Origin: Xestospongia bergquistia
Lineage: Eukaryota > Porifera > Demospongiae > Haplosclerida > Petrosiidae
DNA: 64,000 nt
NCBI GenBank assembly: GCA_963965975.1
Contig: OZ014417.1
Coordinates: forward strand, 1,054,001-1,118,000
Reading direction: 5' to 3'
Each line of letters begins with the position of its first letter. The stretch's first letter is position 1. A program made the translations under genes and the position numbers. Positions 1,272-48,110 of the stretch are shown here, piece after piece. The notes under the pieces were generated by a model. The model did not search any database and was not told the origin of the DNA. It worked only from the letters and a program-made list of their open reading frames with translations.

Positions 1272-4200
1272 ATGAAGATAACTCTGTTCTTATCAGTTAT
1301 ATTGATAGTAATATTGCCATTAGCTACTGGACAATCATCATGTCCTCTTCCTACAGTAGATGATATAGAGAGGGAGTTGAATGATCTACTTCTTGATGCA
1401 GATTCAGGAGGAGGACCGTATGATCCTACTGTATCATCATATCAGTATACTTGTCTTGCTCAAGGATCAACTAGAGATACTTATCGTAGAGTATCTATTA
1501 TAGCTACATTTACTCCTAACAATGGACAATCTTCACAAACACAACACTTTCAATTAGATTGTTCAAGTGGTACATGGATGGCAAGAATTAATGATGGTTT
1601 TGGTACTCCTCCCTCAAATCCAATGATGAGAACTGACTGTTTTTATTGTGTACCTGAAAACCTTGGTGGTGATTCTAACCATTGTTCACGTAAGTTAATA
1701 ATATATATTTGAATATATTGTAAATATTCCTTTTAATATAGCTTGTAATTCTGCTTGTAACTATGGATCAGGAAGATGTTTATCAAATAGTCCTGTAGTC
1801 TGTTGTCCTTACTTTGGTCTTGATAATATGTGTACTACATCATGTCCAACTAACTATGTTGCCAGCGACAATACTAACTTTACATGTGGTAAGTAAATTA
1901 ATATATAAATAATACATTGATCCTATACCATGTAGTCTGCAACGATACCTGTGGTCCTGGTGAAGTTGCTAATGCTACATGTAATGGATGTAATCTGACT
2001 GATATCTGTCAACGAGATATACCTTGTCAAAATGGAGGATCATGTCTATTGTTATCTGCCCCTAATAATTACACATGTAATTGCAGTGGTACTGGATATA
2101 ATGGTACTAATTGTACTGGTAAGTTGTCTATGTTACTACATACACTTTGTATTTGTATTTCTTACTGATACATGGTAAGCAAAGGAATTTTAATAAGCCA
2201 CACTCCAACAACCTTAATTTGAGTTATCATAACAATTATTGTTATTGAACCATATCTTTACTAGGTCCTCCAGTGATAACACCATCAGGATCAGTGATAG
2301 TATTATATAGCAATGATCTATTAGTTAAATGTGAAGCTAGTACTAGTGGTAATATTCTCTCCTATCAGTGGTTAGATAGTAATGGAGTTATTATCACTAC
2401 TTCAAATACAAGTCCTCTACTATTGAATATAACTAATTTTTGGCCCATAATAGTTGTTTTTATTGTTATTTTGTTAGATATAAATTCTCTTGTGATATTT
2501 TATTGATAAACAAAGCATAATAACTAGACCTATTTCCAATCTGGCAGTAATATTTTATAAAATTATTGTAATTGAATTCATGTATTAGCTCACATAGATC
2601 ATGTGATCTCTAAAAAAAGTTGTGATAATCAGAAATGACAACTTATAGTATATTAACTACTACCACTATAATAACAATATTATTGACATTAACTACTAAC
2701 ATCATTCAATGCTTAGTTTTTACTATTGCTACTTTATATAAATTGATCAGGTGATAGTGAACTAATGTAACATCAACGGCAGTAAACATTGCCCAGTCTT
2801 AATGACTACTATAGTGTATACACTAAGTATCATAAATATTTGTATCTTCTCACTGTGTAGTATATATTTCCTAATATAACCTCATATACATATATTGTAT
2901 AATAGCTTTTGAATAGCCTTAATATTATATATTGTACTACATATTAAAGCATATTGTAGTGACCTTAAGTAAGTTATTATTAAAAAGTCATGCATGAAAG
3001 TCAGTATTACAATGTCAGATTATATTATTATATATGCTGCTACTAGTGATATCTGTTATTACAACACACTGTAAGAACATAGGAATGCCATTAGTATAGA
3101 CATGTTGTTATCAATACAACACTCAATAACATTGCAACATAGCTGCATTAACAAGGCTATAATTTAAAAACTATTTTGTTATTATTGTTTGAAGATATCA
3201 ATTTCACAGTGAAGCTTTTGAATTTTGAAATTAAATTTAAGAGCTAGTAGAAAGAATACAAAATACACCAATTTGTCATAGTACTCATTATATAAATGCT
3301 AATAAAATTGTTTATTATTTTCTGTGTGTATTGACAGTTAAATTTAACACATCATTTTATATTGTCACATACTATAATAAAAAATAAAATGACACACAAG
3401 TCTATATATATATATATATATATAGGTTTATAATATATAGCTTAAATCTGTGGGACTGTCTGGCATGAAAAACATACCAGAAAATAATGTTAGATGTATT
3501 TACAAGTTAAAACAAGGACTTGCAATGCAATGCTACTTACTAATAATTCTACTAGAGGTGCACTTAAAAACTTTATATAGTTCCAACCAAACCTTGGTTA
3601 CCATAGTTTTATCAATGTAGTGTGCAGTCTAATTGTAGTCACATACAGACAAGGCTCACATGATTGACTATGTTGACATACTCTACAAACTATATAAAAC
3701 AAACATACAGTAAAACTAGTTTCTTTAATGTATTCTCTTGATTATGTATATTACAGCTATTTATTAGTTGTAGCTGTGACTGGTGGTCTATTGGGCACCA
3801 AAATAGATGATATTCAATTAACAATGGTTTCCTCTTCTAGTTCCTAGTGGTCCTCCATCTAATGTGATGGTATACATTTTAAATGAGACTAGTATTAAAG
3901 TCAATTGGACTATGTCATCACAGGCTAATGGATATGTCATTGTCATTAACTCTACTACTGGAGTAGGTACCAACAAGATATTATCTACTACAGTACATGA
4001 AGTTATAATCAATGGACTAACATTGAGTACATATTATAACATCAGTGTGTACTCAAATAAAGATCTTCCTTCAGTTAATAGTACACAAAGATTGTTAAGG
4101 TTTGATGGTGAGTTGATATTTGTATAAACACAATGTGACTTTATTTGATTGTCTAGTTCCTACACCAGTAACTAATCTCTCAGTAAATGATGTCTCATCC

Positions 4201-5594
4201 ACTACTATTACATTGAACTGGACTATTCTCAGTAGTGAAGATGGTAACTATGTAACATACTACAACATTTCCTATAGTCCATCTTGTCCCGAGTTGTCAT
4301 CAGTGAATGTGACATTGGTCTCTGTTACTCCTTATCAGTCTGCTACAACATTCAATTATATATTAAGAGAATTGTACAGTGGTATGAAGTATATCATCAC
4401 AGTGAGAGCTGGTAATATACTAGGAGAGTCTAGTCCAGTGATGACATTTGGTGAAACAAAACCCACTTCAGGTAAAATATAATCACTAATTTTATTCAAG
4501 TAATATAATCATGTAGTTCCATTTGGATCACCAAAGTCAATTATGGCCCTTTCAGTAAATTTGACAGCAAACAAAATAATATGGGAAGATATTGATTGTC
4601 ATCTACGTAATGATAGAACTATTGAGTATATTGTGATCATTAGTAACAATAGTATCACATACAACGTCACCAGTAGTGAGAGATATGTCATTGTGAATGA
4701 TCTAGTATTTGGTAATGTATATAACATACGTGTAGCTGGTGTCAACTCTATTGGAAGAGGTCCCTTCAGTAATCCTGTCAAAATACAAATTGGAAGTAGT
4801 AAGTACATTGTCATTCTAGTGAACTACATTTATATTTTCTACTTAGTTCCTGGTCCAGTTGGTACACTAACTAGTTTGATGTCTACTACATGGGCTGTTA
4901 TTTCATGGAGTGTACCTAGTTATATTCCTATAGACTATCCCATTATCACATATGAGATAGGGTACGCTACTCATCAATTTAATGGTAGTTGTTCTCCTAG
5001 TGATGAGTTTAGTCCAATGATTAAAACTAATACAAGTAGTACAAATATGACTATAAGTGATCTAATGGATAACACCTATTATCTGTTTGGTGTACGTGGT
5101 TATACTATTAATGGTTATGGAGTATGGACAGTTATTACTAATCAAACACTAGTTGATCCACTAATGACAGATCCTACATTATGTACTGATAGTAGTAAAA
5201 GGTACTGTCTCTAATATTTGATGTTTATATTGATATCTTGTACTAGTTCTATTACTGGACTGGGTGTACTTGTTGGTATATTGTTATCTGTAGTGATAGC
5301 TTGTTCTATTGCTAATGTCTTACAATTTATACTTAACAGCCGGTATAGGGCAGAAACTGTTACTTCTAAAAGTAAACATCAAAAAGACAGTGGGTAAGTG
5401 TTGTCATATTTCCGTTACTTTGTGTTAACTATACACTGTTTATCAATAGACCCGATGAAGATATTAAAATGCAAATCTGTGAGCCATACAGTTTTCATCA
5501 GTCTAAACCAACTAATGAGAGTAAAGTGATATACGATGAGTGTCAACTGTCAACAACAGATATTACTGATACCAGTATCTATGAGTCAATATGA
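1272..5594 (+). CDS. Receptor B1: N-domain/EGF/4xFN3 single-pass receptor with ITIM-like tail
   Basis: Exons: 1272-1689, 1742-1888, 1936-2118, 3841-4107, 4157-4471, 4517-4798, 4847-5201, 5247-5393, 5450-5594 (752 aa). The start is ATG 1272, followed by a hydrophobic signal peptide ending ATGQ. Exon 1 encodes the family N-domain, exon 2 an 8-Cys segment, exon 3 an EGF (CQNGGSC...[13 protein letters not shown]). Four FN3 domains follow, one per exon, with core Trp (VNWTM, LNWTI, IIWED, ISWSV) and late Tyr. TM: GLGVLVGILLSVVIACSIA. The tail of about 75 residues has IYDE and ends SIYESI, which fits the ITIM consensus (S/I/V/L)xYxx(I/V/L). Most junctions are phase 1; the last two are phase 2. The Ig exon between EGF and FN3 is truncated and presumably skipped, which keeps the frame. 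It is likely a cell-surface recognition receptor; the ligand is unknown. Confidence 0.8.
2265..2506 (+). pseudogene. Truncated Ig exon of B1
   Basis: It starts after a good acceptor (TTTACTAG) and encodes the first two-thirds of an Ig domain (GPPVITPSG...KCEA...YQWLDSNG...LLLNITN). The intact exon at 39,332-39,589 continues [11 protein letters not shown] and has a splice donor. Here the second Cys and the donor are missing. Reading through adds a hydrophobic segment (FWPIIVVFIVILLDINSLV) and then a stop. Because the exon is phase 1 on its 5' side and its neighbours are phase 1, skipping it keeps B1 in frame. Confidence 0.8.
2507..3840 (+). other. Long intron of B1 with (TA)n microsatellite
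   Basis: This is AT-rich with no coding exon that I can support. A (TA)n tract lies near 3401-3424. Parts of it resemble the E intron at 39,590-41,082, for example the GCTACTAGTGATATCTGTTA segment near 3040 and GTGTGCAGTCTAATTG near 3620. This suggests the intron was inherited from an E-type gene before fusion to the FN3 half. Copies lie in B2 and B3. Confidence 0.6.
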
Positions 5595-6230
5595 ATACAT
5601 AATACATATTAACTGGTTATGTTGTCACTAATTGTAATTGTTTTCATGCTGTTGGTACACTTATGTTACATTTGACATTTCATGTTTTAAATATACCTAC
5701 ACCATGATTTATTTCCATTATTTGGACCAAAAAACAACTTCAAAAGAATGAATTAATTTGTCAAAATCATTAAAATGAAATCAGATGAATTAACGTCAAA
5801 CCTGATACCCAATGGTAGATATTTAATACATCACTCTCATTGGAAATTTGTGTACTTGTAATTATCAAACTGACAGTGTGAAAGACAACAGTACAACATA
5901 CAACTCTTCAGTTTATATCTGCAGACTTCCAATTTTCAACAGACAGCACTTATCTAGTGCAAACCTACATTAGACTATGCTAAATAACTGTAAGTAAATG
6001 TATAGTAATGTAAATGATTATAATGTAAATAATGTAATGTTTATTGTCAACATGGTTATTACTTATAATAACTAGCCATGTTTACAATAACTTGGTCAAG
6101 TTATTCATATTTCATAAGAGGCACATTTATTTGTTTAGTACAGTAGACATCTCATCTTTGATATGTGTAGAATGTTGACTATACACTGAAGATTAAATAG
6201 AAAGGCTCTAAGTAAGACATTATAATACAA
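5595..6230. other. 3' flank of B1, no gene
   Basis: Noncoding and AT-rich. The same sequence follows B2 (12,375-13,018). The B3 copy is cut at about 19,510, where it joins the truncated GPCR-B. No RNA gene or mobile element is recognised. Confidence 0.5.
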
Positions 6231-6667
6231 ATGTAACCATAAGTGATCTGATGGATAACACCTGTTATCTGTTTGGTGTACGTGGTTACACTATGTCACT
6301 ATTAATGGTTATGGAGTATGGACAGTTACTGCTAATCAAACACTAGTTGATTTTACAACAACACAGACAACAGTGATTACTAATGGAGGTAAAATCAATT
6401 TAATATGCATAACTTTACTTTTGTAATAGAGCCAAATAAAGTAAAATTTTATTTAATATAGGTATAGCAGGTGGAGCTGTTGGTGCTATTTTTTAAATTG
6501 AATTGCTAATAGTAGTGATAGTAATTATATTTGTAAGGTAAGGCCAACCAAAAGTATATATTAATAAAGTGTGTATGGTTTAATACAGACACAGAAGAAT
6601 AAACAAGAATTCCAAACAAATTTATAATAATGAAAACTTTATACTAACTGAAAAGAAACCAATTTAA
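6231..6667 (+). pseudogene. Remnant of another single-pass receptor: FN3 end, TM exon and tail
   Basis: 6231-6390 matches the end of the fourth FN3 exon (ISDLMDNTCYLFGVRGY), but a small insertion at about 6290 shifts the frame. After an acceptor at 6460-6461 comes a TM-like exon (GIAGGAVGAIF, then a stop, then IELLIVVIVIIFV) with a donor at about 6538. A last exon near 6589 encodes a basic tail (HRRINKNSKQIY...TEKKPI) ending at TAA 6665-6667. The TM and tail differ from those of B1-B3, so this is the broken 3' end of a different paralogue. A copy lies in the next repeat unit (13,019-13,447). Confidence 0.65.
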
Positions 6668-6837
6668 CCAGAAACAGGTACAGTAGACCTAGTTAGAATA
6701 TTGCTATTGTTTTGTGTTCACTATAAGAACAACAGTATACTGTAGTTAATAAATTGAAGATGTCCAGTCACTATCATGTCATATCACTATCGGTTATGAG
6801 TATGTAAACAACAAGCTAACATGTTGCCAGTGCTAAT

Positions 6838-7424
6838 ACTAACTTTACATGTGGTAAGTAAATTAATATATATCTAAGACATTGATCCTTTAATATATAG
6901 TCTGTAGCTACACTTGTGGTCCTGATGAAGTTGCTAATGCTACATGTAATGGATGTGATCTGACTGATATCTGTCAACGAGATATACCTTGTCAAAATGG
7001 AGGATCGTGTATATTATTATCTGCCTCTGATAATTACACATGTAATTGCAGTTGAACTGGATATAATGGTACTAATTGTACTGGTAAGTTGTCTATGTTA
7101 TTACATACACTTTGTATTTGAGTTTGTTACTGGTAAGCAAACAAATTTTAATAAGCTATACTCCCACAACCTTAAATTGAGTTATCACAGCAAGTATTGT
7201 TATTGAACCATCCAGTGATAACACCATCAGGATCAGTGATAGTATTACTTGGCAATGATCTATTAGTTAAATGTGAAGTTAGTGGTAATATTCTCTTCTA
7301 TCAGTGGTTAGATAGTAATGGAGTTATTATCACTACTTCAAATACAAGTCCTCTACTATTGAATTTAACTAATCAGTTTGCCTTCAACACTTATTTCCAA
7401 TCCATTTCCTTTCTCTTTATCTAA
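6838..7424 (+). pseudogene. Broken exon 2 end, EGF and Ig exons
   Basis: The end of exon 2 (TNFTCG plus donor) is followed by an EGF exon at 6901-7083, with its acceptor and donor kept but an in-frame TGA in the CNCSGTGY segment. An Ig fragment from about 7211 has lost its splice acceptor. It breaks off after LLLNLTN, and the sequence then matches intron DNA seen at about 30,010. With a stop and a missing acceptor this cannot be an active part of a receptor gene. It is repeated 6,790 bp downstream. Confidence 0.75.
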
Positions 7425-8027: not shown

Positions 8028-11000
8028 ATGAAGATACCTCTGTTCTTATCAGTTGTACTGATAGTAATACTGCCATTAGCTACTGGACAATCATCATGTC
8101 CTCTCCCTACAGTAGATGATATAGAGAGGGAGTTGATTGATTTACTTCTTGATGCAGATTCAGGAGGAGGACCATATGATTCTACTGTATCATCATATCA
8201 GTATACTTGTCTTGCTCAAGGATCAACTAGAGATACCTATCGTAGAGTATCTATTATAGCTACATTTACTCCTAACAATGGACAATCTTCACAAACACAA
8301 CACTTTCAGTTAGAGTGTTCAAGTAGTACATGGAGTGCAGTAACTAATCATGGTTTTAGTACTCCTCCCTCAAATCCAATGGAAAGAAGAGATTGTTTTT
8401 TGTGTGTACCTGAAAATCTTGGTGCTGATTCTAACCATTGTTCAGGTGAAGTTATTATCATTATTATAATTGTAGATATTATTATTATATTATAAATAGA
8501 GTGTAGTGCAACCTGCAGGAATATAGGACAAGGAAGTTGTGTATCATCTGCTACAGATTGTTGTCCTTACTTTGGTCTTGATAATATGTGTACTACATCA
8601 TGTCCAACTAACTATGTTGCCAGTGCCAATACTAATTTTACATGTGGTAAGTAATTAATATAATTATCTAAAATGCATTGATTCTATATCATATAGTCTG
8701 TAATCATACTTGTGGTCCTGGTGAAGTTGCTAATGCTACATGTAATGGATGTGATCTGATTGATATCTGTCTACGAGATATACCTTGTCAAAATGGAGGA
8801 TCATGTATATTGTTATCTGCCCCTAATAATTACACATGTAATTGCAGTGGTACTGGATATAATGGTACTAATTGTACTGGTAAGTTGTCTATGTTAGTAC
8901 AAACACTTTGTATTTGTATTTCTTACTGATACATGGTAAGCAAAGGAATTTAATAAGCCACCACTCCCACAACCTTAATTTGAGTTATCATAACAAGTTT
9001 TGTATTGAACCATATCTTTACTAGGTCCTCCAGTGATAACACCATCAGGATCAGTGATAGTATTACTTGGCAATGATCTATTAGTTAAATGTGAAGTTAG
9101 TGATAATATTCTTTCCTATCAGTGGTTAGATAGTAATGGAGTTATTATCACTACTTCAAATACAAATCCTCTACTATTGAATATAACTAATTTTTGGCCC
9201 ATCATAATTGTTTTTATTGTTATTTTGTTAGATATAAATTCTCTTGTGATATTTTATTGATAAACAAAACATAATAACTAGACCTATTTCCAATCTGGCA
9301 GTAATATTTTATAAAATTATTGTAATTGAATTCATGTATTAGCCCACATAGATCATGTGATCTCTAAAAAAGTTGTGATAATCAGAAATGACAACTTATA
9401 GTATATTAACTACTACCACTATAATAACAATATTATTGACATTAACTACTAACATCATTCAATGCTTAGTTTTTACTATTGCTACTTTATATAAATTGAT
9501 CAGGTGATAGTGAACTAATGTAACATCAACGGCAGTAACCATTGCCCAGTCTTAATGACTACTATAGTGTATACACTAAGTATTATAAATATTTGTATCT
9601 TCTCACTGTGTAGTATATATTTCCTAATATAACCTCATATACATATATTGTATAATAGCTTTTGAATAGCCTTAATATTATATATTGTACTACATATTAA
9701 ATCACATTGTAGTGACCTTAAGTAAGTTATTATTAAAAGTCATGCATGAAAGTCAGTATTACAATGTCAGATTATATTACTATATACTGCTGCTACTAGT
9801 GATATCTGTTATTACAACACACTGTAAGAACATAGGAATGCCATTAGTATAGACATGTTGTTATCAATACAACAATCAATAACATTGCAACATAGCTGCA
9901 TTAACAAGGCTATAATTTAAAAACCATTTTGTTATTATTGTTTGAAGATATCAATTTCACAGTGAAGCTTTTGAATTTTGAAATTAAATTTAAGAGCTAG
10001 TAGAAAGAATACAAAATACACCAAATTGTCATAGTACTCATTTTATAAATGCTAATAAAATTGTTTATTATTTGCTGTGTGTATTGACAGTTAAATTTAA
10101 CACATCATTTTATATCGTCACATACTATAATAAAATAAAATGACACACAAGTCTATATATATATATATATATATATAGGTTTATAATACATAGCTTAAAT
10201 CTGTGGGACTGTCTGGCATGAAAAACATACCAGAAAATAGTGTTAGATGTATTTATAAGTTAAAACAAGGACTTGCAATGCAATGCTACTTACTAATAAT
10301 TATACTAGAGGTACACTTAAAAACTTTATATAGTTTCAACCAAACCTTGGTTACCATAGTTTCATCAATGTAGTGTGCAGTCTAATTGAGTTATCCATAG
10401 AACCAAATTAAAATATAGTAACTAAATACATAAAGCCAATTCAAAAAGTAATTTTTATAGTTCATTACCCAATGATAGAATCAAGGATACTATTTCAACA
10501 AGGTGTCTTTAATGTATTCTCTTGATTATGTATATTACAGCTATTTATTAGTTGTAGCTGTGACTGGTGGTCTATTGGGCACCAAAATAGATGATATTCA
10601 ATTAACAATGGTTTCCTCTTCTAGTTCCTCATGGTCCTCCATCTAATGTGATGGTATACATTTTAAATGAGACTAGTATTAAAGTCAATTGGACTATGTC
10701 ATCACAAGCTAATGGATATGTCATTGTCATTAACTCTACTACTGGAGTAGGTACCAACAAGATATTATCTACTACAGTACATGAAGTTATAATCAATGGA
10801 CTAACATTGAGTACATATAACATCAGCGTGTACTCATATAAAGATCTTCCTTCAGTTAATAGTCCACAAAGATTGTTAAGGTTTGATGGTGAGTTGATAT
10901 TTGTATAAACACAATGTGACTTTATTTGATTGTCTAGTTCCTACACCAGTAACTAATCTCTCAGTAAATGATGTGTCATCCACTACTATTACATTGAACT

Positions 11001-12374
11001 GGACTATTCCCAGTAGTGAAGATGGTAACTATGTAACATACTACAACATTTCCTATAGTCCATCTTGTCCCGAGTTGTCATCAGTGAATGTGACATTGGT
11101 CTCTGTTACTCCTTATCAGTCTGCTACAACATTCAATTATATATTAAGAGAATTATACAGTGGTATGAAGTATATCATCACAGTGAGAGCTGGTAATATA
11201 CTAGGAGAGTCTAGTCCAGTGATGACATTTGGTGAAACAAAACCCACTTTAGGTAAAATATAATCACTAATTTTATTCAAGTAATATAATCATGTAGTTC
11301 CATTTGGATCACCAAAGTCAATTATGGCCCTTTCAGTAAATTTGACAGCAGACAAAATAATATGGGAAGATATTGATTGTCATCTACGTAATGATAGAAC
11401 TATTGAGTATATTGTGATCATTAGTAACAATAGTATCACATACAACGTCACCAGTAGTGAGAGATATGTCATTGTGAATGATCTAGTATTTGGTAATGTA
11501 TATAACATACGTGTAGCTGGTGTCAACTCTATTGGAAGAGGTCCCTTCAGTAATCCTGTCAAAATACAAATTGGAAGTAGTAAGTACATTGTCATTCTAG
11601 TGAACTACATTTATATTTTCTACTTAGTTCCTGGTCCAGTTAGTACACTAACTAGCTTGATGTCTACTACATGGGCTGTTATTTCATGGAGTTTACCTAG
11701 TTATATTCCTATAGACTATCCCATTATCACATATGAGATAGGGTACACTACTCATCAATCTAATGGTAGTTGTTCTCCTAGTGATGAGTTTAGTCCAATG
11801 ATTAAAACTAATACAAGTAGTACAAATATGACTATAAGTAATCTAATGGATAACACCTATTATCTGTTTGGTGTACGTGGTTACACTATTAATGGTTATG
11901 GAGTATGGACAGTTATTACAAATAAAACACTAGTTGATCCATCAATGACAGATCCTACATTATGTACTGATAGTAGTAAAAGGTACTGTCTCTAATATTT
12001 GATGTTTATATTGATATCTGTACTAGTTCTATTACTGGACTGGGTGTACTTGTTGGTATATTGTTATCTGTAGTGATAGCTTGTTCTATTGCTAATGTCT
12101 TACAATTTATACTTAACAGCCGGTATAGGGCAGAAACTGTTACTTTTAAAAGTAAACATCAAAAAGACAGTGGGTAAGTGTTGTCATATTTCCGTTACTT
12201 TGTGATAACTATACACTGTTTATCAATAGACTCGATGAAGATATTAAAATGCAAATCTGTGAGCCATACAGTTTTCATCAGTCTAAACCAACTAATGAGA
12301 GTAAAGTGATATACGATGAGTGTCAACTGTCAACAACAGATATTACTGATATCAGTATCTATGAGTCAATATGA
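8028..12374 (+). CDS. Receptor B2: N-domain/EGF/4xFN3 single-pass receptor with ITIM-like tail
   Basis: Exons: 8028-8445, 8500-8646, 8697-8879, 10625-10888, 10938-11252, 11298-11579, 11628-11982, 12027-12173, 12230-12374 (751 aa). The architecture is as in B1. Exon 2 begins ECSATCRNIGQGSC, unlike the [13 protein letters not shown] of B1, so the second Cys-rich segment varies. The first FN3 lacks one Tyr codon (STYNIS instead of STYYNIS). The tail ends DISIYESI, keeping the ITIM-like consensus. The Ig exon is truncated exactly as in B1. Exon 1, exon 3 and the Ig remnant encode the same protein as in B3, while the FN3 exons differ from B3 at several residues. The donor after exon 1 is CAG/GTGAAG. 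The start is ATG 8028, as the preceding codon is GTG. Confidence 0.8.
9025..9260 (+). pseudogene. Truncated Ig exon of B2
   Basis: Same break as in B1: Ig coding stops after LLLNITN and runs into FWPIIIVFIVILLDINSLVIFY and a stop. The second Ig cysteine and the donor are lost. The shared breakpoint shows that the deletion predates the duplication. Confidence 0.8.
9261..10624 (+). other. Long intron of B2
   Basis: No coding signal. There is a (TA)n tract near 10,155-10,177. Compared with B3 it lacks about 120 bp containing the GTAGTCACATACAGGCAAGG segment, while B1 lacks the segment just before it (AGTTATCCATA...). B3 has both. Confidence 0.6.
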
Positions 12375-13447: not shown

Positions 13448-13627
13448 ACCAATTTAACCAGAAACAGGTACAGTAGACCTAGTTAGAATATTGCTATTGT
13501 TTTGTGTTCACTAGAAGAACAACAGTATACTGTAGTTAATAAATTGAAGATGTCCAGTCACTATCATGTCATATCACTATCGGTTATGAGTATGTAAACA
13601 ACAAGCTAACATGTTGCCAGTGCTAAT

Positions 13628-14214
13628 ACTAACTTTACATGTGGTAAGTAAATTAATATATATCTAAGACATTGATCCTTTAATATATAGTCTGTAGCTA
13701 CACTTGTGGTCCTGATGAAGTTGATAATGCTACATGTAATGGATGTGATCTGACTGATATCTGTCAACGAGATATACCTTGTCAAAATGGAGGATCGTGT
13801 ATATTATTATCTGCCTCTGATAATTACACATGTAATTGCAGTTGAACTGGATATAATGGTACTAATTGTACTGGTAAGTTGTCTATGTTATTACATACAC
13901 TTTGTATTTGAGTTTGTTACTGGTAAGCAAACAAATTTTAATAAGCTATACTCCCACAACCTTAAATTGAGTTATCACAGCAAGTATTGTTATTGAACCA
14001 TCCAGTGATAACACCATCAGGATCAGTGATAGTATTACATGGCAATGATCTATTAGTTAAATGTGAAGTTAGTGGTAATATTCTCTTCTATCAGTGGTTA
14101 GATAGTAATGGAGTTATTATCACTACTTCAAATACAAGTCCTCTACTATTGAATTTAACTAATCAGTTTGCCCTCAACACTTATTTCCAATCCATTTCCT
14201 TTCTCTTTATCTAA
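13628..14214 (+). pseudogene. Second copy of the broken exon 2 end, EGF and Ig
   Basis: This matches 6838-7424 at an offset of exactly 6,790 bp, including the in-frame TGA in the EGF and the lost Ig acceptor. Few bases differ (for example TTGATAATGC for TTGCTAATGC), pointing to a recent duplication. Confidence 0.75.
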
Positions 14215-16942: not shown

Positions 16943-16976
<34 letters not shown>

Positions 16977-19289: not shown

Positions 19290-19510
19290 ATACATAATAC
19301 ATATTAACTGGTTATGTTGTCAATAATTGTGATTGTTTTCATGCTGTTGCTACACTTAAATATACCTACACCATGATTTATTTCCATTAGTTGGACCAAA
19401 AAACAACTTCAAAAGAATGAATTAATTTGTCAAAATCATTAAAATGAAATCAGATGAATTAACATCAAACCTGATACCTAATGATAGATATTTAATACAC
19501 CACTCTCATC

Positions 19511-30578: not shown

Positions 30579-30726
30579 AGAACAATTTTTACAAGCAAAG
30601 TAAGATATAAATCAAAGTTTATTGGTGTATCAACAGTTTAGTTATTATTAATAACTAAATAATTATTAATGAATAATTACTTTTCAGCGAGGTTCTTTAC
30701 TGAAGTGCCTTTATTCAAGCAGAGTG

Positions 30727-36700: not shown

Positions 36701-36705
36701 AATAG
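30727..36705 (+). CDS. GPCR-D: adhesion GPCR with Ser-Gly repeat insertion and altered tail
   Basis: Exons: 30727-31213, 31261-31407, 31461-31643, 32261-32554, 32604-32942, 32992-33111, 33160-33447, 33495-33592, 33639-33731, 33765-33930, 33978-34240, 34297-34428, 34482-34576, 34619-35066, 35116-35167, 35210-35313, 35359-35489, 35549-35811, 35863-35929, 35976-36705 (1499 aa). Domain order as in GPCR-C. The N-domain has an insertion of three 8-residue LGSGS-type repeats (24-bp units at 30,853-30,924). The 7TM exon starts KELCTSDHG, where the others have KKLRTSDHG. In the tail about 14 residues are missing after VTGK. A one-base loss in an A-run (AAAGAAAATTGC) then shifts the frame, replacing the acidic [11 protein letters not shown] end by a basic one (CKEKRRNRINRKISPSTK). 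The GPS (CNHLTSF) and HRM are intact. Confidence 0.85.
30853..30924 (+). repeat. Three 24-bp repeats coding Ser-Gly motifs in GPCR-D
   Basis: The unit is ACCGATGCACTGGGCTCAGG plus CTCC, three in a row, coding LGSGS with a variable linker. It is clearly richer in G+C than its surroundings. It lies where the other N-domains have DADSGGGPY. Confidence 0.9.
31644..32260 (+). other. GPCR-D intron with a micro-exon-like piece and inverted Ig remnant
   Basis: At about 31,955-31,979 a 24-nt phase-compatible piece (TTATAACTTCATCACCATCA) is flanked by TTATAG and GTAATG. At about 32,022 the start of an Ig exon follows an AAAG acceptor (ATCTTACTATTAACCCAACA), but a TAG stops it. From about 32,056 to 32,200 the - strand matches the middle of that same Ig exon (reverse complement contains GATACTGGAGATTATCATTC). 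The Ig exon present in E has therefore been broken and partly inverted here. Confidence 0.6.
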
Positions 36706-36742
36706 CTTAGCTAGCTTGTAAGGACATGTTGATTATTATGTG

Positions 36743-36781
<39 letters not shown>

Positions 36782-38339: not shown

Positions 38340-41300
38340 ATGAAGATACCTCTGTTCTTATCAGTTGTAGTGATAGTAATATTGCCATTAGCTACTGGAC
38401 AATCATCTTGTCCTCTCCCTACAGTAGATGACATAGAGAGGGAGTTGGTAGATCTACTTCTTGATGCAGATTCAGGAGGAGGACCATATTCTGCTACTGT
38501 ATCATCACATCAGTATACTTGTCTTGCTCAAGGATCAACTAGAGATACATATCGTAGAGTATCTATTATAGCTACATTTACTCCTAACAGTGGACAAGCT
38601 TCACAAACACAACACTTTCAATTAGAGTGTTCAAGTGGTACATGGAGGGCAAGAACTTTTGATGGTTTTGGTAATCCTCCCTCAAATCCAATGGAAAGAA
38701 TAGATTGTTTTAGTTGTGTACCTGATAATCTTGGTGCTGATTCTAATCATTGTTTACGTAAGTTAATAAGATTGAATAGATTGTAAATATTCCTTTTAAT
38801 ATAGCTTGTAATTCTGCTTGTAACTATGGATCAGGAAGATGTCTATCAAATAGTCCTGTAGTCTGTTGTCCATTCTTTGGTCTTGATAATATGTGTACTA
38901 CATCATGTCCAACTAACTATGTTGCCAGTGTCAATACTAACTTTACATGTGGTAAGTAAACTAATATATATACATATGATACATTGATCCTATAATATAT
39001 AGTCTGCAATCATACCTGTGGTCCTGGTAAAGTTGCTAATGCTACATGTAATGGATGTAATCTGATTGATATCTGTCAACGAGATATACCTTGTCAAAAT
39101 GGAGGATCATGTATATTATTATCTTTCCCTAATAATTACACATGTAATTGCAGTGGTACTGGATATAATGGTACTAATTGTACTGGTAAGTTGTCTATGT
39201 TAGTACATACACTTTGTATTTGTATTTCTTACTGATACATGGTAAGCAAAGGAATTCTAATAAGCCACACTCCCACAACCTTAATTTGAGTTATCATAAC
39301 AAGTATTGTTACTGAACCATATCTTTACTAGGTCCTCCAGTGATAACACCATCAGGATCAGTGATAGTATTATATGGCAATGATCTATTAGTTAAATGTG
39401 AAGCTAGTGGTAATACTCTCTCTTATCAGTGGTTAGATAGTAATGGAGTTATTATCACTACTTCAAATACAAGTCCTCTACTATTGAATATAACTAATGT
39501 GACTCAGTCTGACAGTGGAACATATATCTGCAAAGTAATCTATACCAACTCAGCCACTGAGAACTCAAGTATTCTCATAATAGTTGAAGGTTAGTATTGT
39601 AGTTACAAAGTAAAGAAATGATGTAAATTAAAGGAGTGGATTAGAAACAAGCAATAAGAGCTATTCTCATTTTTATCTTGCTTTTATGGACATTAATTTA
39701 ATAATATATAAAGTATATTAAAATAACTAGTTTTTTTGTCTTCAATGCTCATTTCCAATTCATTTCCTTTCTCTTTGTCTTAAATTCTACCACATTAAGA
39801 TTTTAATTAAATTAACAATAAAAGTGAACTATCATATAAAGCAATTTGTACTGTCCTTATATATGTCATTATTATAAAGATCATGTATGAAAGTCAGAAT
39901 TATAGTAGCAGATTATATTACTATATATACTGCTACTACTAGTGATATCTGTTATTACAACTAACATATTGTAATAAGCAATTTGTATAATATAGCATTA
40001 ACAGTAGTAACCATTGCCCAGTCTCAATGACTACTATAGTGTGTACATTGAGTATCATATTTATTTGTATCTTTTCACTGTGTAGTATATTTCTTAATAT
40101 GGCCTCATATACACATATTGTATAATAACTATGAATAGCCTTAAAATTTTATATTGTACTAAATATCAAAGCACATTATATTGTCCTTAAATATATCATT
40201 ATTATAAAGGTCATGTATGAAAGTCAGAATTATAGTAGCAGATTATATTACTATATATACTGCTACTACTAGTGATATCTGTTATTACAATTAACATATT
40301 GTAAGAACATAGGAATGCCATTAGTGTACACATGTTGTTATTAAACAAATTTTGGTTACTATAGTTTCATCAATGTGATGTATGTGCAGTCTAATTGAGT
40401 TATCCACAAAGCCAAATTATAGTACATAATCCAAACTGAAAGTAATACCCAATAATAGAGGCCACGAGCAAGAGATGGATACTACTTCAACAAAGTATCT
40501 GTAAATAACCAGTAGTCACATATAAGCAAGGGTCTAGTACAGTAATACATGTTTGATTACATTAATACACTCTATAAACTGTATACCTATCTCACAAACT
40601 TACATAACACTAACTTTACAATATATTTTCTTGTTAAAACAAACACTCTAATAATAACATTGTAATACTACAATAATGCTAAGTATTTTCATGAATTACA
40701 ATATGGCTATATATTCTTAGTTTATGAGGGAGTGACTGTCAAGGGCAGAGACAAATTTTCAAAGTAGGGGAGGGTGACTCAGTACAATTAAGCTGCCACA
40801 AAGTAACACATTGGCACTATATGTAGCTATTTATAGTTAATAATAATATTGACTATTTGTTTACAGGGTAGGTATGAATATTACACATACAGAACCTTTA
40901 AGGAATGCACAGGTGAACTAAAGTTCAAAATTAAAAATCTAGAGGGCTACAGGCCCCAGCCCCAACCTTGTCTATATCCTTTCAGTGACAGTATGAACTG
41001 TCTTAAAAATACATTCCCAATCATTAAGTAGATTCATGACTAAGTACACTTAAAAATGAAAATCACTTATTATCATACATAGATGGCTGGAGTACATCAG
41101 CAAGTTCTCATATTATTGGAGCACTGCCTATTCAACTAAAGCAAGGTCTTACACTTGTTATTACTACTGAAGAAAACAAACCAGTCAATTTCACAATCAA
41201 AAACTTAACAGGAACTATATCAAGTGGCTCAGTTACTTCCAATATACCAACAAATGTCACTTTGAATTTAAGTAATACTGTTGATAGTAGGACAGACCGA

Positions 41301-44300
41301 GAGAAAGGTATCATAGTGTCCACAGGATCACGTAGCAAAATATCAGTCTTTGTTGCTGTTAGTGGTAGTGATACAGCAGGTGTCTATCAGAGTTATCCCA
41401 CCTGGGGATATCCTGTCAATGAATATGTTTACTTTGCTATTTCCACTGGTAGTAGCACTGTTGGTTCATTTAGTACTCTTCTCCTTGTATCTGCCAACAA
41501 TGATACTATCATTACTATAACTCCTACAGTTAATATAACTATACCTCATGATCTGAGCCCCACTGGTATTGATGTTATGATAACAAGTGGAAACTCTGTC
41601 ACTATTCAACTGGACTATCTCCAAACATTTTTAATTAACTCACTAAATGATTTAACAGGCTCAAAAGTCATTTCAAACAAACCAATTGCTGTCTACTCAG
41701 GACACACATGTGGTGAAGCACCAACTCCAGGAACATTTGCTTGTGACTTTCTTGGTGAGCAAATACCTCCAACAACATCTTGGGGTAATTCCTTCCTTGC
41801 AAGTCCTTTCTCTACTCGTAAGTCAGGCTATTTGTTGAAGATCATCAGTTCACAACATAATACTAACATCAATATATCTTGTCAATCAAACATCACATAT
41901 GAGATATCATCACTACAGGAAGATGGTACAGCATCACAACTGATCACTGGTCGAAACATTTGTCACATTTATGCAAATAATCCTATTCTTGTAGCACAGT
42001 TTTCTTTGGGACAAAGCCTTGATACAGAAGGTGAAAATTATATTCCTGGTGATCCTGGTGTAGTGATTGTTCCTCCCTTTAAGCATTATGTGACCAGTAC
42101 TATATTTCCTGCTATCACTTTGTTGTCATCTACAAAATATATGAACTTGGCTGTTATTTTATCAAACTTCAATTCTTCCCTAATATTATTAAACAATGTA
42201 TCACTTAGGTCTGAAATATGGACTACAATTAATAGTGATGATGGTAGTAGTATAGTTGGTTATGTATTAACTAATTATTCCCTTTCAAGTGATATTAACA
42301 ATGTAAGTTATCAAGATTCAAGTGCCAGACTCTGTCCACTGATATTTGGTTCAACCTATTCTGTTGGCTACACATATACTGGAGGACTAAACATGATTCC
42401 CTATGGATATGAAGGTATAAAGAAACCATTTTTTATTTAGTGCAATTTCTTTTCTTTGTTTGCTTATTTATTATTTTTCTTTTAAAGATCTTACTGTTAA
42501 TCCAACACCTTTGCTAGCAGTAATAAATGGTGATACTGCTGTTTTAAACTGTAGTGCTAGTGGTAATCCTCCTCCTACTGTACACTGGATATTTCATGGT
42601 AGTAACATAACAAATGATACTGTTAAGTATATTATTACAAATGGAGTCTTAACAATACTGAATGTAGAACTTAATGATACTGGAGATTATCATTGTACTG
42701 CATCTAATGTATACAGATCTGTGAGAGGCACAATTGAGTTAAAAGTTCAAGGTAACTCTACACTTTAAATGTCTAAAATTTATAAACTCTATATTTTATA
42801 GTACCTCCATTTTTTATTAATGTTCTATCAACTAAAACAAATGTTATTCTTGGTGGTAATATGAGTCTCAACTGTACTGCTTATGGTGTTCCTAGACCTA
42901 GTGTGACATGGAGAAAGAATAATAAACACATATCCTCATCTTCCCCTGGCATTACTATTATTAATGATAATATGACAGCTCATGAAGTTACAAGCTACCT
43001 CATATTGAGTGATATTTCTCATAATGACTCAGGAATATATCACTGTAATGCAAGTAATGATTTAGTTGAAGTGAAATCCATCATCTCATCTGGAAGGGTA
43101 TACATTTTAAGTAAGTCTAAAGTTTTGTTATACAAACAATGTTATTATTTGTTATAAATTAGGTCCTCCATCTCTTGTAAAGGGCTTTGTGAACATCACT
43201 AAAAATCAATCAGACACTGTCCAATTGTCTTGTACCTTTTCTGGTCAACCCGTTCCTCAAGTGACATGGTCAAGATCTCAGAACAATGTTGATAAGGAAG
43301 AACTTGATAATAGAACCAACAAAATAACTGTAACTAGTTCTATCAATGATACTACAGTTGTGTCTACATTGAAGATAAATGATATAGAAAAAACAGATGA
43401 AGGGAACTATATTTGTAATGCATCTAATGGTATACCAAACTTGATCCAATCACAAGAATACAACAAAGCCTTTATAACAGTTCAAGGTATTATATATTAT
43501 TTTGATAATAAACAACATCTTTTTCTTTATTTAGTACCACCTACTGTACAACCAGTATCTAACAGAGTCATTGGATTACTTAATGAATTTGTTACTATTT
43601 CATTTACTATCACTAATGATTTCCCAAAAGTGAAAGTATATAACATACAATGGCAAGTTAAACGTTTTAATTCTGACAGATTTATGTTTATTAGCCCTGA
43701 GCTTTTTTTTGATAATCCGCTTTCTTTAATTATCCCCAATGTTCAATTAAGGGATAGAGGATTATATAAAATGTTAGCACAAAATGAAGCAGGGATTGGT
43801 GAAGCAACAATTGTTCTGGATGTATATGGTAAGTCTGAAACTATAGTACTATAGGATTAATTTAATATATCCTCAATGATTTTAGTAACAGCTGCTTTAT
43901 GGAACAATACTGGAGGGACTGTAATAAAAACAAAAGGACAAAATGTTGTGTTCAACTGTACTGCTGATGGTCTTCCACGACCTACTATCGTATGGAGGAG
44001 AAATGGTCAACTTTTATTGAACACTAGTAGATTAAAAATTATATCATCAGAACAGGCCAATAGTTTTCGTTCAAACATTATCCCTGAAGTTCTACAACGT
44101 ACAAATATGCTAGAGATTACAGACTTGAAAGGAAATGATAATGGTAGCTATTCTTGTCGAGCTGATAATGAAGCTAATTTAGGAGTTATATTAACAACAC
44201 CATTTACATTACAAGTATTAGAACGTAAGTGATTAGCTGTTGTTAAATATTAATTATTAAAGATTTCTTTTAGCTCCACCAACCAATTATTGTTTGAGTT

Positions 44301-47300
44301 CTCCATGTGGTAAAAATGGTAAATGTCATAGTTTGAGTAATGGATATTTATGTGATTGTAATGATGGATACACTGGTATCAATTGTGACCAAGGCAAGTT
44401 ATGAATGATTTTGATATCAAGTTTATATTTAAATATAGTTGTAGTGGTAACAGTTCCACCACAAATTACACAGCCTCCTAAAAATACTTCAGGGAATCTC
44501 TACTCCAATACTAACCTTACATGTAAAGCTACTGGTTCTCCTATTCCTACTATTCTATGGTATAAAGATGATGTGTTAATTCCTAATGACAATAGTGATC
44601 CCTCTGTGTTGTTATTCTCTGAATTGGATTTAAGTGATCGAGGATTTTACCACTGTGAAGCTAGAAGTATAATAGATGGAAAAAATGTATTTACAGTTTC
44701 TTCAAGAGTACTTCTAAATATCACAGGTATGAAATATTTTATTTTATGATGTCCACTATTTATTTTAATCCAGATGTTGTTCAGTATGAAGCTGAAATAG
44801 AACTACCAGATGACTTTTATGAGAGAAGTAATTTGAGTATACCTGATAGGATCTCTGATCTTATTTACAAGGTAATTGATGTGTCACAAATGTTATAATC
44901 ATTTTATTTATTATTTAGAGTAACAATTATCTTGCTGGTAGTCGATTGAGCAATACCTCAAACACATCATTTTTCTTCATTCAAATTTTTAATGCTAGTA
45001 ATTTGAAGTCAGTATATCCATTTTTATACTAAATATTATATCAGACAATATTTAGTTATACTGCACAAGTCCATACTATTCCTATTGTTATTACTTTGGT
45101 AACAAAAAGTGGAGCTTCTGAAGAGCTCAGGGATGGAGTACAACATCAAATGGCTATGCTAGGCAGACAACTTAGTGTTAATATTTCAATAGCTGAAGTA
45201 GACAGATTTGGTAAAACATATTTTAATTTATTTTTTGATTATTTTGTTTTTTTAAGATGGTTGTCCTCCTGACAAAACTATCATACCATCACATTCTGGC
45301 AAGAAAGATCTTGAACTTATTCTTTTCTGGCCTGAAACTAATATTGGAGGAGAAGCTGTAGTGAGCTGTCCTTGTGGAAATGGGAGTACAGGAGGACAAA
45401 TATTACAAGCTAATCGATATTGTGGAGGAGACTTTACCAGAGGTGCTGAATGGTCTAAAGGAAATATAGCAGCTTGTAATTTCAGTGACTTAGCAAGAGA
45501 AATATGTCAGCTAAGAAATGTTTGTTCTTTGGATGCAAATACAGGAAAGTAATCATTATTTACCTCTTTAGCTTCCTGTAGCTGAGAGAATAGTACGGTT
45601 GGAGAATCTTACAAGTAACAGTGATGTTTTAGGATCAACTGAAGTAACAGCAAGTGTGAGTGTACTGGTGACAGCTACTGAAGGTGTATCTGGTAATATT
45701 ACAGTAAGGAATTCTTTTAATCAACATAACAGTACCTGTTTTTATATCACCTTTAAAGTTAACTACAACATTTTTAGAAGTTGTTGACAACATATTAGAT
45801 GTCAATCAAGATACATTACAAACCAGTCAAGAAACCTCTAATACATCAGCTAAGTTAGTTTGTTATTTCAAGTAAATACTAGTACATATTTTGTAGGATA
45901 TTGGAAGCTATTGAATCAGTTGTTGAGAATATACCACTTACTAATACATCAGAACCTGTTGTAATTTCTCAAAAGTCATTTGCTGTATCTGTGCAACAAG
46001 TAGACATTGAAGAATTTAAACAATCTGGTCAAACGTTCAGTGTAAATTTTGGAGACTTTTCTAATGAAAATCAAAGCCTTAATTCGAATGATCTGACATT
46101 TGGAGGATCTAATCAGCAATCAACTGCAGCTATAAGTCTACCCAGAAATTTGCTAAATGGAATTCCAAACATTTCTAATAATACTAGAATCACTCATTCA
46201 GTATTCATCACTGACTCCTTATTCCTGAGGAGAGTGGACAACTTCCAAGAAGTTGGCAGCATTATTTTATCAGCTGCAGTAGTAGGGACAGATACTATCA
46301 CGGGACTTAATCCTCCTGTGGGTCTTAGTTTCATGATCAATCCAGTGAGTATAGGATTCCTAAGTGTTTATTAGTTGCTTTCTTAACTTTAGAATATAAA
46401 TGGTTCATCTCCTCATTGTTCATTTTGGAATCAATCTTTAGATGGTAAATGTGATTTATATAGAATAATTTTAATTGTTACAATAGATGAATATGGAGAT
46501 TGGTCAAGTAAAGGGTGTCGTAATATTACCAACAATGAAACAGAAGTTATCTGTGAATGTAATCATCTCACAAGCTTTGCTATATTATTGGTAACAATTG
46601 TTTATTTAATGATATAAATATTTATTTAAAATTCAGGATGTGTCTGTGACAGTTGAACCAACAGAGAGAACAGGATTGACATTGTTCTTGGATGCTGTGA
46701 CTTACATTGGTATCATTGTATCCCTATTTTGCCTGATTATAACTATTATCTCATATCTCTCTAACAAGTAAAATACTATAGTGTTAATAAGTTGTTATGT
46801 TTTGTTTTTACAGGAAACTTCGTACTTCTGATCACGGACAACTTCTTCTTAATTTATGTTTTGCTTTAATTGGTCTTTACATTACTTTTATTTTTGCTGT
46901 TCACAGTCGAGATGTTCCAGTTCTCTGTGCTGTTACAGGAGCAGTGTTACAGTATTTTTTCTTGGTGACATTCATGGTGATGGCTGCAGTGGCTATCAAC
47001 CTGTACATGAATTTAGTGATTATTCTTGGTCAGAAAATTAGCCATTTTGTTTTGAAGGCTACTATTGCATCTTGGAGTAAGTACTGATAGTGTTGTTATT
47101 ATTTAATTCATTTTTTTCTGTGTTAGTAATTCCATTCTTTATTGTGTTGTTCTGCTTTGCTCCCAATTACAAAAACTACTTGAGTGATCATTTGTGAGTA
47201 AAATTAAAGTTTAATTTCAAGTGTTATTACATTTATCACTTACAGTTGTCGTGCTTTTAATATTCCATATTATGTTGGTATGGTGGTACCATTTTTGATC

Positions 47301-48110
47301 ATCTATATCTTTAATTGGGTAGTGTTTTTCATCATATTTGTTTCTCTCATCCAAAGAAGCTTCCAGTCGAAGGATGTTAAATCGAAAAATGATAAAGGGA
47401 AAAAATCTTTTGTTCGTCAACAGCTTATTATAGTTACAACATTGTCAATTTTATTTGGTTTGGGATGGGGTATTGGATTGTTTGCTACTCAAGATATCCA
47501 TACCAATAAGACAATACGAGACTTGTTTGCTGCATTGTTTGTGATCTTGACTGCTTTTCATGGTCTTTTTATTTTCATAATGCACTGTCTTCGCTCAAAG
47601 GAAGTAAGAAACACTTGGAAACAATGGGTTTTTATTGTTACGGGCAAAGATATCAGTCGATTTTCTTCATCAACATTTTCTCGTAAGCATAAAAAGCGAT
47701 ATGATATTGGAGTAGCTAATTCTGGAAATAATTCTTTGGGAAAATCCAGTTATGATAGTAACGTATATGTAACTCTTCAATCTTATAAACAAAAGCCTCT
47801 AAGCTCTCCTGTAGATGTCTTAATTGTAGAGAATAGAGAGGTGGAGATGGAAAGTGGTGCATTATCTGAGACAACTATCACTAAGTCATTTCCTGATGAT
47901 AAAAATGAAAAGGAAGAACTGCAAAGAAAAGAAAAGGGTACATTATCTGAGACGACATTCACTGAGTCATTTCCTGATGATAATAATGAAAAGGAAGAAC
48001 TTCAAAGAAAAGAAAAGGGTGCATTATCTGAGACGACATTCACTGAGTCATTTCCTGATGATAAGAATGAAAAGGAAGAACTGCAAAGAGAAGAAGAGGA
48101 ACAGTATTAA
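38340..48110 (+). CDS. GPCR-E: large adhesion GPCR with IgGFc-binding-like domain and seven Ig exons
   Basis: Exons: 38340-38757, 38805-38951, 39003-39185, 39332-39589, 41083-42414, 42488-42751, 42802-43110, 43163-43486, 43535-43828, 43886-44224, 44274-44393, 44439-44726, 44774-44871, 44919-45011, 45045-45210, 45257-45519, 45572-45703, 45759-45853, 45897-46344, 46393-46444, 46487-46590, 46637-46767, 46814-47076, 47127-47193, 47246-48110 (2350 aa). Order: signal peptide, N-domain, 8-Cys, EGF, Ig, a 444-residue single-exon domain resembling the IgGFc-binding protein N-terminal domain ([34 protein letters not shown]), five Ig, EGF, Ig, linker, HRM, GAIN, GPS, 7TM. The tail carries three 27-residue repeats. 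The donor after 44,393 is GC (AAG/GCAAGT). It is the fullest gene in the cluster and may be close to the ancestral form; the Ig count rests on Cys/Trp/YxC patterns. Confidence 0.85.
39590..41082 (+). other. Long GPCR-E intron with an internal duplication
   Basis: A segment of about 100 bp (CATGTATGAAAGTCAGAATT to GATATCTGTTATTACAA) occurs twice, at about 39,883 and 40,211. The same sequence type recurs in the B introns (about 2,990, 9,740 and 16,530). No exon is supported between 39,590 and 41,082. Confidence 0.6.
47856..48098 (+). repeat. Three 81-bp repeats in the GPCR-E cytoplasmic tail
   Basis: Units are 47856-47936, 47937-48017 and 48018-48098. Each encodes 27 residues of the form GxLSETTxTxSFPDDxNEKEEL. 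The other GPCRs have this segment once (VTTFTKSFPDDEVDEKEKL), so it has expanded in frame in E. Confidence 0.95.

Follow-up and report, generated by a model that had tools for sequence, protein, structure and literature searches.

Gene conversion between paired receptors has already been published: in CD300A/CD300C it keeps the ectodomains alike between partners of different signalling (PMC12447643). The Botryllus fuhc FcoR and the Hydractinia Alr receptors are tied to fusion and rejection, with fuhc being highly polymorphic (PMC12065747). In sponges, adhesion G protein-coupled receptors (GPCRs) of Amphimedon queenslandica carry HRM, Ig, EGF and fn3 domains in their N-termini (PMC4302439), and class 1-1 exon shuffling is regarded as an old mode of assembly of animal proteins (PMC8001218); these statements, like the comparisons with the same four papers below, refer to excerpts of each source. 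Here, a stretch of 64,000 nucleotides (nt) from the sponge Xestospongia bergquistia (assembly GCA_963965975.1, contig OZ014417.1, in the following C7:1054001-1118000), termed the window, was analysed. It harbors three genes, B1, B2 and B3, in which a three-exon N-terminal segment, the head, is followed by four FN3 domains, a transmembrane segment (TM) and a tyrosine-bearing tail, and three adhesion GPCR genes, C, D and E, which start with the same head. The locus is best explained, with a probability of about 0.62, by a head that serves as an exon cassette, a fusion that placed an FN3 segment behind it and an exchange of head pieces between receptor classes.

Gene parts were recognized by reading the sequence together with its open frames, and exon models were then assembled and translated. 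Signal peptides and the TM of the FN3 genes were assigned by eye. Searches covered the assembly of 146.46 Mb in 21 contigs; match counts of the head search are lower bounds, with split matches collapsed by hand. All structures of the B and GPCR genes are thus read from the DNA of one genome.

A three-exon head common to six genes

In all six genes exons 1–3 are open, bordered by GT/AG splice sites and free of stop codons, and the phases at the three head boundaries are uniformly 1,1,1. Exon 1 encodes the signal peptide and an N-domain, exon 2 a Cys-rich segment and exon 3 an EGF-like domain. On the forward strand these exons occupy positions 1272-1689, 1742-1888 and 1936-2118 in B1, 8028-8445, 8500-8646 and 8697-8879 in B2, and 14818-15235, 15290-15436 and 15487-15669 in B3. 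The corresponding exons are located at 21987-22404, 22451-22600 and 23567-23749 in GPCR-C, at 30727-31213, 31261-31407 and 31461-31643 in GPCR-D, and at 38340-38757, 38805-38951 and 39003-39185 in GPCR-E. When the exon models are spliced on paper, every head joins its own next exon in frame, which is Ig1 in C and D and IgA in E.

The exons of B1 are 93, 88 and 91% (exon 1), 95, 96 and 97% (exon 2) and 97, 96 and 96% (exon 3) identical to those of C, D and E, respectively. Exons, frames and splice sites therefore support the view of the preliminary description that two receptor types share one ectodomain start. Exons 1–3 are indeed common to all six genes; however, since exon 2 of B2 and B3 is only 75.5% identical to that of B1, and 92–94% identical to genes on contig C10, the term near-identical does not hold for this exon. 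Likewise, the phases agree as had been proposed but the lengths do not throughout: the head exons measure 418/147/183 nt in B1, B2, B3 and E, 418/150/183 nt in C (3 extra nt in exon 2) and 487/147/183 nt in D (69 extra nt in exon 1). Exon 1 of D owes its extra length to an insert in which a 24-nt repeat encoding Gly-Ser is present in three copies (30851-30923), the N-domain thereby gaining Gly-Ser-rich residues; a similar insert is found in the head at C7 1044501. Head introns are mostly about 50 nt long, introns 1 and 2 ranging from 46 to 54 nt with the exception of intron 2 of C (966 nt), where an insertion of about 900 nt (22618-23530) comprises an AT repeat and an imperfect inverted repeat of 300 nt.

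Neither the N-domain nor the Cys-rich exon matched a Pfam family, and the EGF-like exon 3 gave no Pfam match in B1 and scored exactly at the cut-off in B2 (21.5 bits). AlphaFold2 modelled the N-domain, from five window sequences, as a helix followed by four strands, with a mean predicted local distance difference test score of 58.9 and a predicted template modelling score of 0.56. A Foldseek search of the Protein Data Bank with this model gave no match at E ≤ 0.001, and a profile search of solved structures gave two matches up to E 1, the best at 0.17. Among 28 and 80 pattern matches of the N-domain alignment in a collection of genome contigs and one of viral contigs, respectively, none was confirmed, and near kin are possibly absent from these collections.

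B1–B3 are chimeric genes

The FN3 half of B1 comprises the exons FN3a–d (3841-4107, 4157-4471, 4517-4798 and 4847-5201), the TM exon (5247-5393) and the tail exon (5450-5594, ending in TGA), all on the forward strand, and Pfam detects fn3 four times above its cut-offs. The whole segment from 3740 to 5727 is about 86% identical to FN3 genes on contig C2, and this similarity covers exons, introns and the 3' flank. Upstream of it the C2 genes carry different exons. By contrast, B1 matches GPCR-type genes up to position 2437, where an IgA exon (2265-2437, forward strand) breaks off before its donor site; the same exon is whole in E (39332-39589). The remnant shows the same cut in B2 (9025-9191) and B3 (15815-15981), both on the forward strand. 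Beyond the cut, the stretch 2763-3635 of B1 aligns piecewise to the E intron behind IgA (84% over 2763-3119, 80% over 3585-3635), and positions 17137-17392 of B3 align to 40343-40585 of the same intron. Given GPCR-type intron up to 3635 and C2-type sequence from 3740 onwards, the joint is placed between about 3635 and 3740. B1–B3 are accordingly read, from sequence comparison, as chimeras of a GPCR-type head with part of its intron and a C2-type FN3x4-TM-tail segment. The same order is found in B2 (8028-12374, FN3-TM-tail segment 10625-12374) and B3 (14818-19289, segment 17536-19289), both on the forward strand, and the three genes look like one fusion in three near-identical copies.

Since the Ig exon close to the joint lacks a donor, the EGF-like exon must splice straight to FN3a. 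The resulting introns measure 1722, 1745 and 1866 nt in B1, B2 and B3, and the conceptual proteins of 752, 751 and 752 amino acids run without internal stop to TGA, each terminating with SIYESI. Alternatively, the heads may never be spliced to the FN3 exons and may instead end in the intron or give short secreted proteins, leaving the FN3 exons as a silent 3' fragment. The long intron with a broken Ig exon in between, as well as evident fragments at other loci of the array, speak for this possibility. Nevertheless, it is distinctly improbable, given that each of the three copies has an FN3a acceptor of the correct phase and that consensus splice sites are kept at both ends. Moreover, the 100 nt preceding FN3a are C2 intron, so that FN3a is an internal exon requiring an upstream donor, and no start of its own was found for the FN3 half. 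The only candidate, a brief frame just ahead of FN3a that opens with ATG and includes a hydrophobic run (noted by eye), was rejected; it lies mostly within the C2-intron homology.

A search with the FN3c-TM-tail protein yielded at least 152 matches, those listed being located on C2, C9 and C7, and the tail exon gave at least 66 matches, some of which are fragments, on C2, C9, C7 and C8. In the FN3 clusters of C2 and C9 the head search located no close copy of the head: elsewhere on C2 a single distant match (30%) was obtained, and the sole head on C9 (3.375 Mb) is separated by about 40 kb or more from the closest FN3 match listed (3.333 Mb). Within these searches, B1–B3 are therefore the only genes to pair the FN3 tail with the head.

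Stray EGF-like and Ig exon fragments are observed upstream of B2 (6812-7412) and B3 (13602-14163). About 220 nt past the B3 stop, where the B-type sequence ends, a GPS-7TM-tail half (7TM, seven-transmembrane domain) without head, Ig or GAIN follows (19510-21218).

Mosaic heads and apparent exchange of segments between receptor classes

The 3' half of B1 is about 97–99% identical to those of B2 and B3, although a GPCR is the closest relative of B1 in the 5' flank and in exons 1 and 2. Between B1 and B2 the identity amounts to 98.7% over 2438-2900 and 97.4% over 2901-3639, as against 46.6, 62.5 and 75.5% in the 5' flank, intron 1 and exon 2, respectively. In the latter three regions B1 is 88.6, 94.1 and 98.0% identical to the GPCR gene G1 (C7 1137654). 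The head of B2 has neighbours of several kinds. Among 23 heads its intron 1 is 100% identical to that of C10 6910209 and 96% to those of C10 6913372 and 7190217, and its exon 2 is 92–94% identical to these three genes compared with 80–86% to C7 GPCRs. The nearest relatives of the remaining parts are G2 for exon 1 (94%), G1 for exon 3 (97%), E for intron 3 (96%) and D for the 5' flank (78%). In a second alignment (with intron 2 and exon 3 disregarded for gene C and C1b, where they were misaligned or the exon was lacking), the neighbours of B2 were unchanged for exons 1–3 and intron 1, and B1 was nearest to GPCRs throughout except in intron 1 (C10 7187958, 96%).

Maximum chi-square tests on the informative sites of B2 gave values that none of 400 shuffles reached in any of nine tests. 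Common to the nine tests is a C10-type tract from 8435 to 8558 (forward strand), spanning the end of exon 1, intron 1 and the first part of exon 2; its limits depend on the parents chosen, with the low end between 8247 and 8435 and the high end between 8558 and 8569. For example, B2 equals the C10 parent at 40 of 41 informative sites within the tract and at 14 of 93 outside. Three tests on B1 were likewise beyond all shuffles. With G1 and E as parents the signal is only the homology break at 2438, where the GPCRs lack B sequence, and with G2 the break is at 2359. In an exon 1 tree of 23 sequences, 4 of whose 19 inner branches are well supported, B1 groups with G1 (95/95), and the identical B2 and B3 stand apart. 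Because the B1 head is GPCR-like despite the B-type 3' half, and B2 and B3 contain a C10-like tract, the heads appear to have been exchanged between classes, in one direction or the other.

Further partners of the head in the genome

Searching with the exon 1 protein gave at least 36 matches at 33 places, corresponding to 30 close and 3 distant copies. The close copies, at least 30 in number, are distributed over five contigs (17 on C7, 8 on C10, 3 on C1, and one each on C3 and C9); 23 are open and long enough, 6 are broken or partial and one is below the score limit. Three of the 14 open heads on C7 and C1 precede FN3 exons and six precede GPCR exons up to the 7TM, namely C, D, E and those at C7 1044501, 1137654 (lacking Ig3) and 1194456. 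Another four (C7 1148046 and 1298311, C1 27883575 and 27894295) are followed by GPCR-type exons with long gaps, missing exons or an end of the retrieved DNA, and to the last, C1 27908844, no partner could be assigned.

On C10, exon 3 continues unbroken into EGF repeats, with a frame of 2215 amino acids still open at the end of the stretch in locus L030 and one of 625 amino acids in L031; the EGF identity of the repeats was confirmed on samples. Of the C10 genes resembling B2, only 6910209 is seen to be a long gene with EGF repeats; 6913372 has the appearance of a gene for a short single-pass protein, and 7190217 has at least two EGF-like exons. The sharing of the head is thus real and wider than first noted: judged by the exons that follow it, the head is not confined to two receptor classes but also occurs in predicted EGF-repeat proteins. 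Distant relatives combine the N-domain and the Cys-rich exon with EGF repeats and a putative TM (C10 6534736) or with a putative TM and a tyrosine-bearing tail (C2 6374709), both TMs being assigned by eye. A further distant relative, L036:643-2340, shows a short single-pass layout with several tail tyrosines.

Three other domains considered as partners were not counted, as they are located downstream of heads without adjoining them, at distances of roughly half a kilobase to several kilobases: Calx-beta (L029, E 6.7e-10), VWA (L033, below cut-off) and a somatomedin B-like stretch (C1, below cut-off). In three truncated genes (C7 1052624-1054529, 1134984-1136932 and 1191711-1193634), the first of which ends inside the window and occupies its positions 1-529, a broken exon 1 and all or part of exon 2 lead directly into TM1 to the tail, without GAIN.

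Constraint on the N-domain

Among the C7 and C1 copies the pooled Nei-Gojobori ratio of non-synonymous to synonymous divergence (omega) is 0.77 for the N-domain (0.54–1.15) and 0.29 for the 7TM (0.22–0.39; codon bootstrap), with 0.52 for the Cys-rich plus EGF-like segment and 0.26 for HRM plus GAIN, all values being distorted by exchange between copies. Of 1000 bootstraps, none placed the N-domain value at or below that of the 7TM, and one placed it at or below that of HRM plus GAIN. A value of 1.00 obtained for GPS was disregarded, as the query used there contained intron. The N-domain is hence under weaker constraint than the GPCR half, and it changes about as fast as introns. Positive selection is not claimed, in view of this intron-like rate and of the sliding-window test given below. 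For residues 77–104, a stretch picked by eye, omega reached 1.84 in 11 C7 heads (5–95% range 1.16–5.27) and only 1.10 across all 23 heads.

Tyrosines of the FN3 tail

The tail comparison comprised 24 sequences: those of B1–B3, two from locus L034 and 19 short stretches hand-picked across the C2 and C9 clusters from the at least 66 tail matches. Three tyrosines are kept in all 24 tails. The consensus of the immunoreceptor tyrosine-based inhibitory motif (ITIM) is [SIVL]xYxx[IVL], that of the second motif considered YxxM. The last tyrosine of B1–B3 fits the ITIM consensus, as do 15 of the 24 tails (all SxYxxI); YxxM is found in 8 and NxYxxI, which fits neither, in one, the +3 residue being I or M. 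SxYxxI closes the three B tails and 9 of 13 sampled C2 tails, and YxxM is present in 4 of 13 sampled C2 and 4 of 8 sampled C9 tails. An ITIM is therefore not conserved across the sampled family, and the proposal of an ITIM-like tail agrees with the motif in B1–B3 and most sampled tails but is weaker than first stated. Judging from the motifs, a phosphotyrosine output of the FN3 tail is likely and an inhibitory one a guess.

This bears on the possibility of a true paired-receptor or allorecognition system, in which an FN3 receptor with an inhibitory role and a GPCR with an activating one would read the same ligand through polymorphic heads. The cluster, the shared head, the different tails and the conversion-like exchange are in line with such a system, as is SxYxxI at the end of the B tails and of most sampled C2 tails. 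Set against these features, the YxxM tails, a GPCR half that is no partner with an immunoreceptor tyrosine-based activation motif and the finding of only three FN3 genes with the head render it doubtful. The resemblance to paired receptors put forward initially thus applies to genomic form, that is, a tandem cluster with a near-identical start, different halves and conversion-like exchange, while the inhibitory tail is weakly indicated; recognition and pairing are plausible but unproven.

Origin and possible role of B1–B3

In the preferred explanation, the three first exons would form an N-terminal cassette that ends in a phase-1 intron and fronts several receptor types in the genome. B1–B3 would have arisen when a C2-type FN3x4-TM-tyrosine-tail segment was placed in the intron that follows one such head within the adhesion GPCR array, and the fusion is present in three tandem copies. 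Gene conversion or unequal recombination probably swapped pieces of the heads with those of GPCRs and of EGF-repeat and related genes on C10.

Several observations weigh against this explanation. The intron between the EGF-like exon and FN3a (1.7–1.9 kb) far exceeds head introns 1 and 2 and contains the broken Ig exon. The heads of B2 and B3 are identical, for which an assembly duplication is also possible. Intron 1 of B1 is nearest to a C10 gene (96%) in one alignment and to the GPCRs G1/G0 (92%) in the other, and the 100% match of B2 intron 1 is thin on its own, as this intron has only 54 nt, is AT-rich and contains a short repeat. Exon 1 divergence is 0.075 compared with 0.057 for introns in four genes (249 of 2000 bootstraps opposite) and 0.103 compared with 0.104 in seven genes (1048 of 2000 opposite), and a sliding-window search for a stretch of excess non-synonymous change in 10 C7 heads was not significant (1901 of 5000 codon-column shuffles). 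Finally, broken heads and headless 7TM halves are abundant in the array, so that the young fusions may be debris.

The last points lead to birth and death of genes as an alternative, in which neutral traffic in an unstable tandem array would account for the fusion as well as for mosaic heads and broken copies, and B1–B3 would be short-lived by-products without a separate role. It agrees with the many broken or incomplete pieces inside and near the window, the intron-like rate of exon 1 and the youth of B1–B3, whose FN3-half exons have a pooled synonymous divergence of 0 to 0.04. Moreover, the FN3-half frame remained open in 52% and 27% of simulations with 15 and 30 random substitutions, respectively, so that three open frames by themselves prove little. 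However, none of the three copies has lost its frame, splice sites or tail tyrosines, and of 10 exon comparisons between the FN3 half of B1 and C2, 9 give an omega below 1, though this record is mostly older than the fusion. Taken together, neutral by-products are a realistic if somewhat unlikely account of B1–B3.

Returning to the cassette and fusion, if B1–B3 are transcribed, spliced as modelled and exposed on the cell surface, the same or nearly the same outer head would be carried by a G protein-coupled and by a phosphotyrosine half, which might bind a common ligand, possibly in recognition of self or microbes, and could give opposite outputs. Expression of B1–B3 would pose the direct question whether one ligand is read through two pathways. 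A tentative, rather unlikely extension is that one recognition head can be plugged interchangeably into no fewer than three outputs (a G protein via the adhesion GPCR, phosphotyrosine/SH2 via the FN3-TM tail, and EGF-repeat proteins), with exchange between heads of different classes and contigs continually making new pairs; such a system would be akin to paired receptors, but germline-based and with several outputs, in an animal of an early-branching lineage. The mosaic heads point to a recent case in which exon cassettes passed not only between contigs but also between receptor types unrelated to each other, and the head genes provide a defined set for testing receptor-side recognition in this animal.

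GPCR genes and other features of the window

GPCR-C (21987-28636), GPCR-D (30727-36705) and GPCR-E (38340-48110) are all located on the forward strand. Behind the head, C comprises Ig1 (from 24168), Ig2, EGF2, Ig3, an HRM-like exon, GAIN, GPS, 7TM and tail, and D extends from Ig1 (32261) to the 7TM and tail. In E, IgA is followed by an IgGFc_binding domain (41049-42413), IgB-D, Ig1, Ig2, EGF2, Ig3, an HRM-like exon, GAIN, GPS, 7TM and tail. With the C exons strung together, Pfam detects 7tm_2 at E 2e-18 (67 bits, cut-off 20.6), with D and E assigned by similarity to C; GPS is found in the GPCR exons at E 2e-15, and several Ig and one EGF between the Ig exons also pass the cut-offs. The best match of the strung GAIN-GPS-7TM exons among solved structures is the adhesion GPCR ADGRG2 (E 2.6e-40). 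The halves of C, D and E thus have the marks of adhesion GPCRs, 7tm_2 and a GPS within the GAIN region before the first TM. Adhesion GPCRs with Ig, EGF and HRM-like parts, together with the very short introns, are in keeping with a sponge. The two downstream architectures first described, FN3-TM and Ig-HRM-GAIN-7TM, are borne out by Pfam for fn3 (x4), Ig, GPS and 7tm_2 but not for HRM, an optional domain of adhesion GPCRs, which scores 18.3 bits and is below its cut-off of 26.2.

The IgGFc_binding domain of E (7.7e-46) is encoded by one large exon inside an adhesion GPCR ectodomain, and the cytoplasmic tail of E contains an 81-nt repeat (47851-48099, 3.1 copies at 92%). Minus-strand remnants of the IgB exon are located in the introns before Ig1 of C (24016-24108) and D (32034-32177). 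In 2-kb bins the GC content of the window is 26–33% up to 56 kb and 38–44% thereafter. At 56803-63764 on the minus strand a retroelement named Gypsy-like by eye from its frames can be observed, in which a 1253-nt stretch is repeated four times head-to-tail (about 95–100% alike).

Comparison with known systems

GPS, 7tm_2 and the N-terminal domain types found here resemble those of the A. queenslandica adhesion GPCRs (PMC4302439). However, the GPCR head described here is nearly the same as the heads of FN3 and EGF-repeat genes, whereas the excerpt of that account mentions no head shared with single-pass proteins. Likewise, no comparable shared head was found in titles and abstract starts of the open-licence literature on adhesion GPCRs and allorecognition of sponges, on paired receptors with gene conversion, and on the shuffling of exons in receptors of sponges. 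As in the class 1-1 shuffling of PMC8001218, head exons 2 and 3, FN3a-c and IgA are bounded by phase-1 introns. In contrast to that old process, the joint and the exchanged tracts are recent and still align through introns.

Like Botryllus fuhc FcoR and Hydractinia Alr (PMC12065747), the B genes lie in a cluster and encode type-I receptors whose tails carry tyrosine motifs. They differ in that the head is also present on GPCRs, and no GPCR with the ectodomain of those receptors is mentioned in the excerpt. The likeness to CD300A/CD300C (PMC12447643) extends to a near-identical part of the ectodomain, different cytoplasmic halves and, within a tandem cluster, an apparent conversion-like exchange of ectodomain exons. 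Here, the near-identical and putatively ligand-binding part comprises exons 1–3 only, less exon 2 of B2 and B3. Unlike CD300A and CD300C, which are both single-pass Ig receptors, one of the partners in the sponge is a 7TM GPCR with which B1–B3 have only the first three exons in common.

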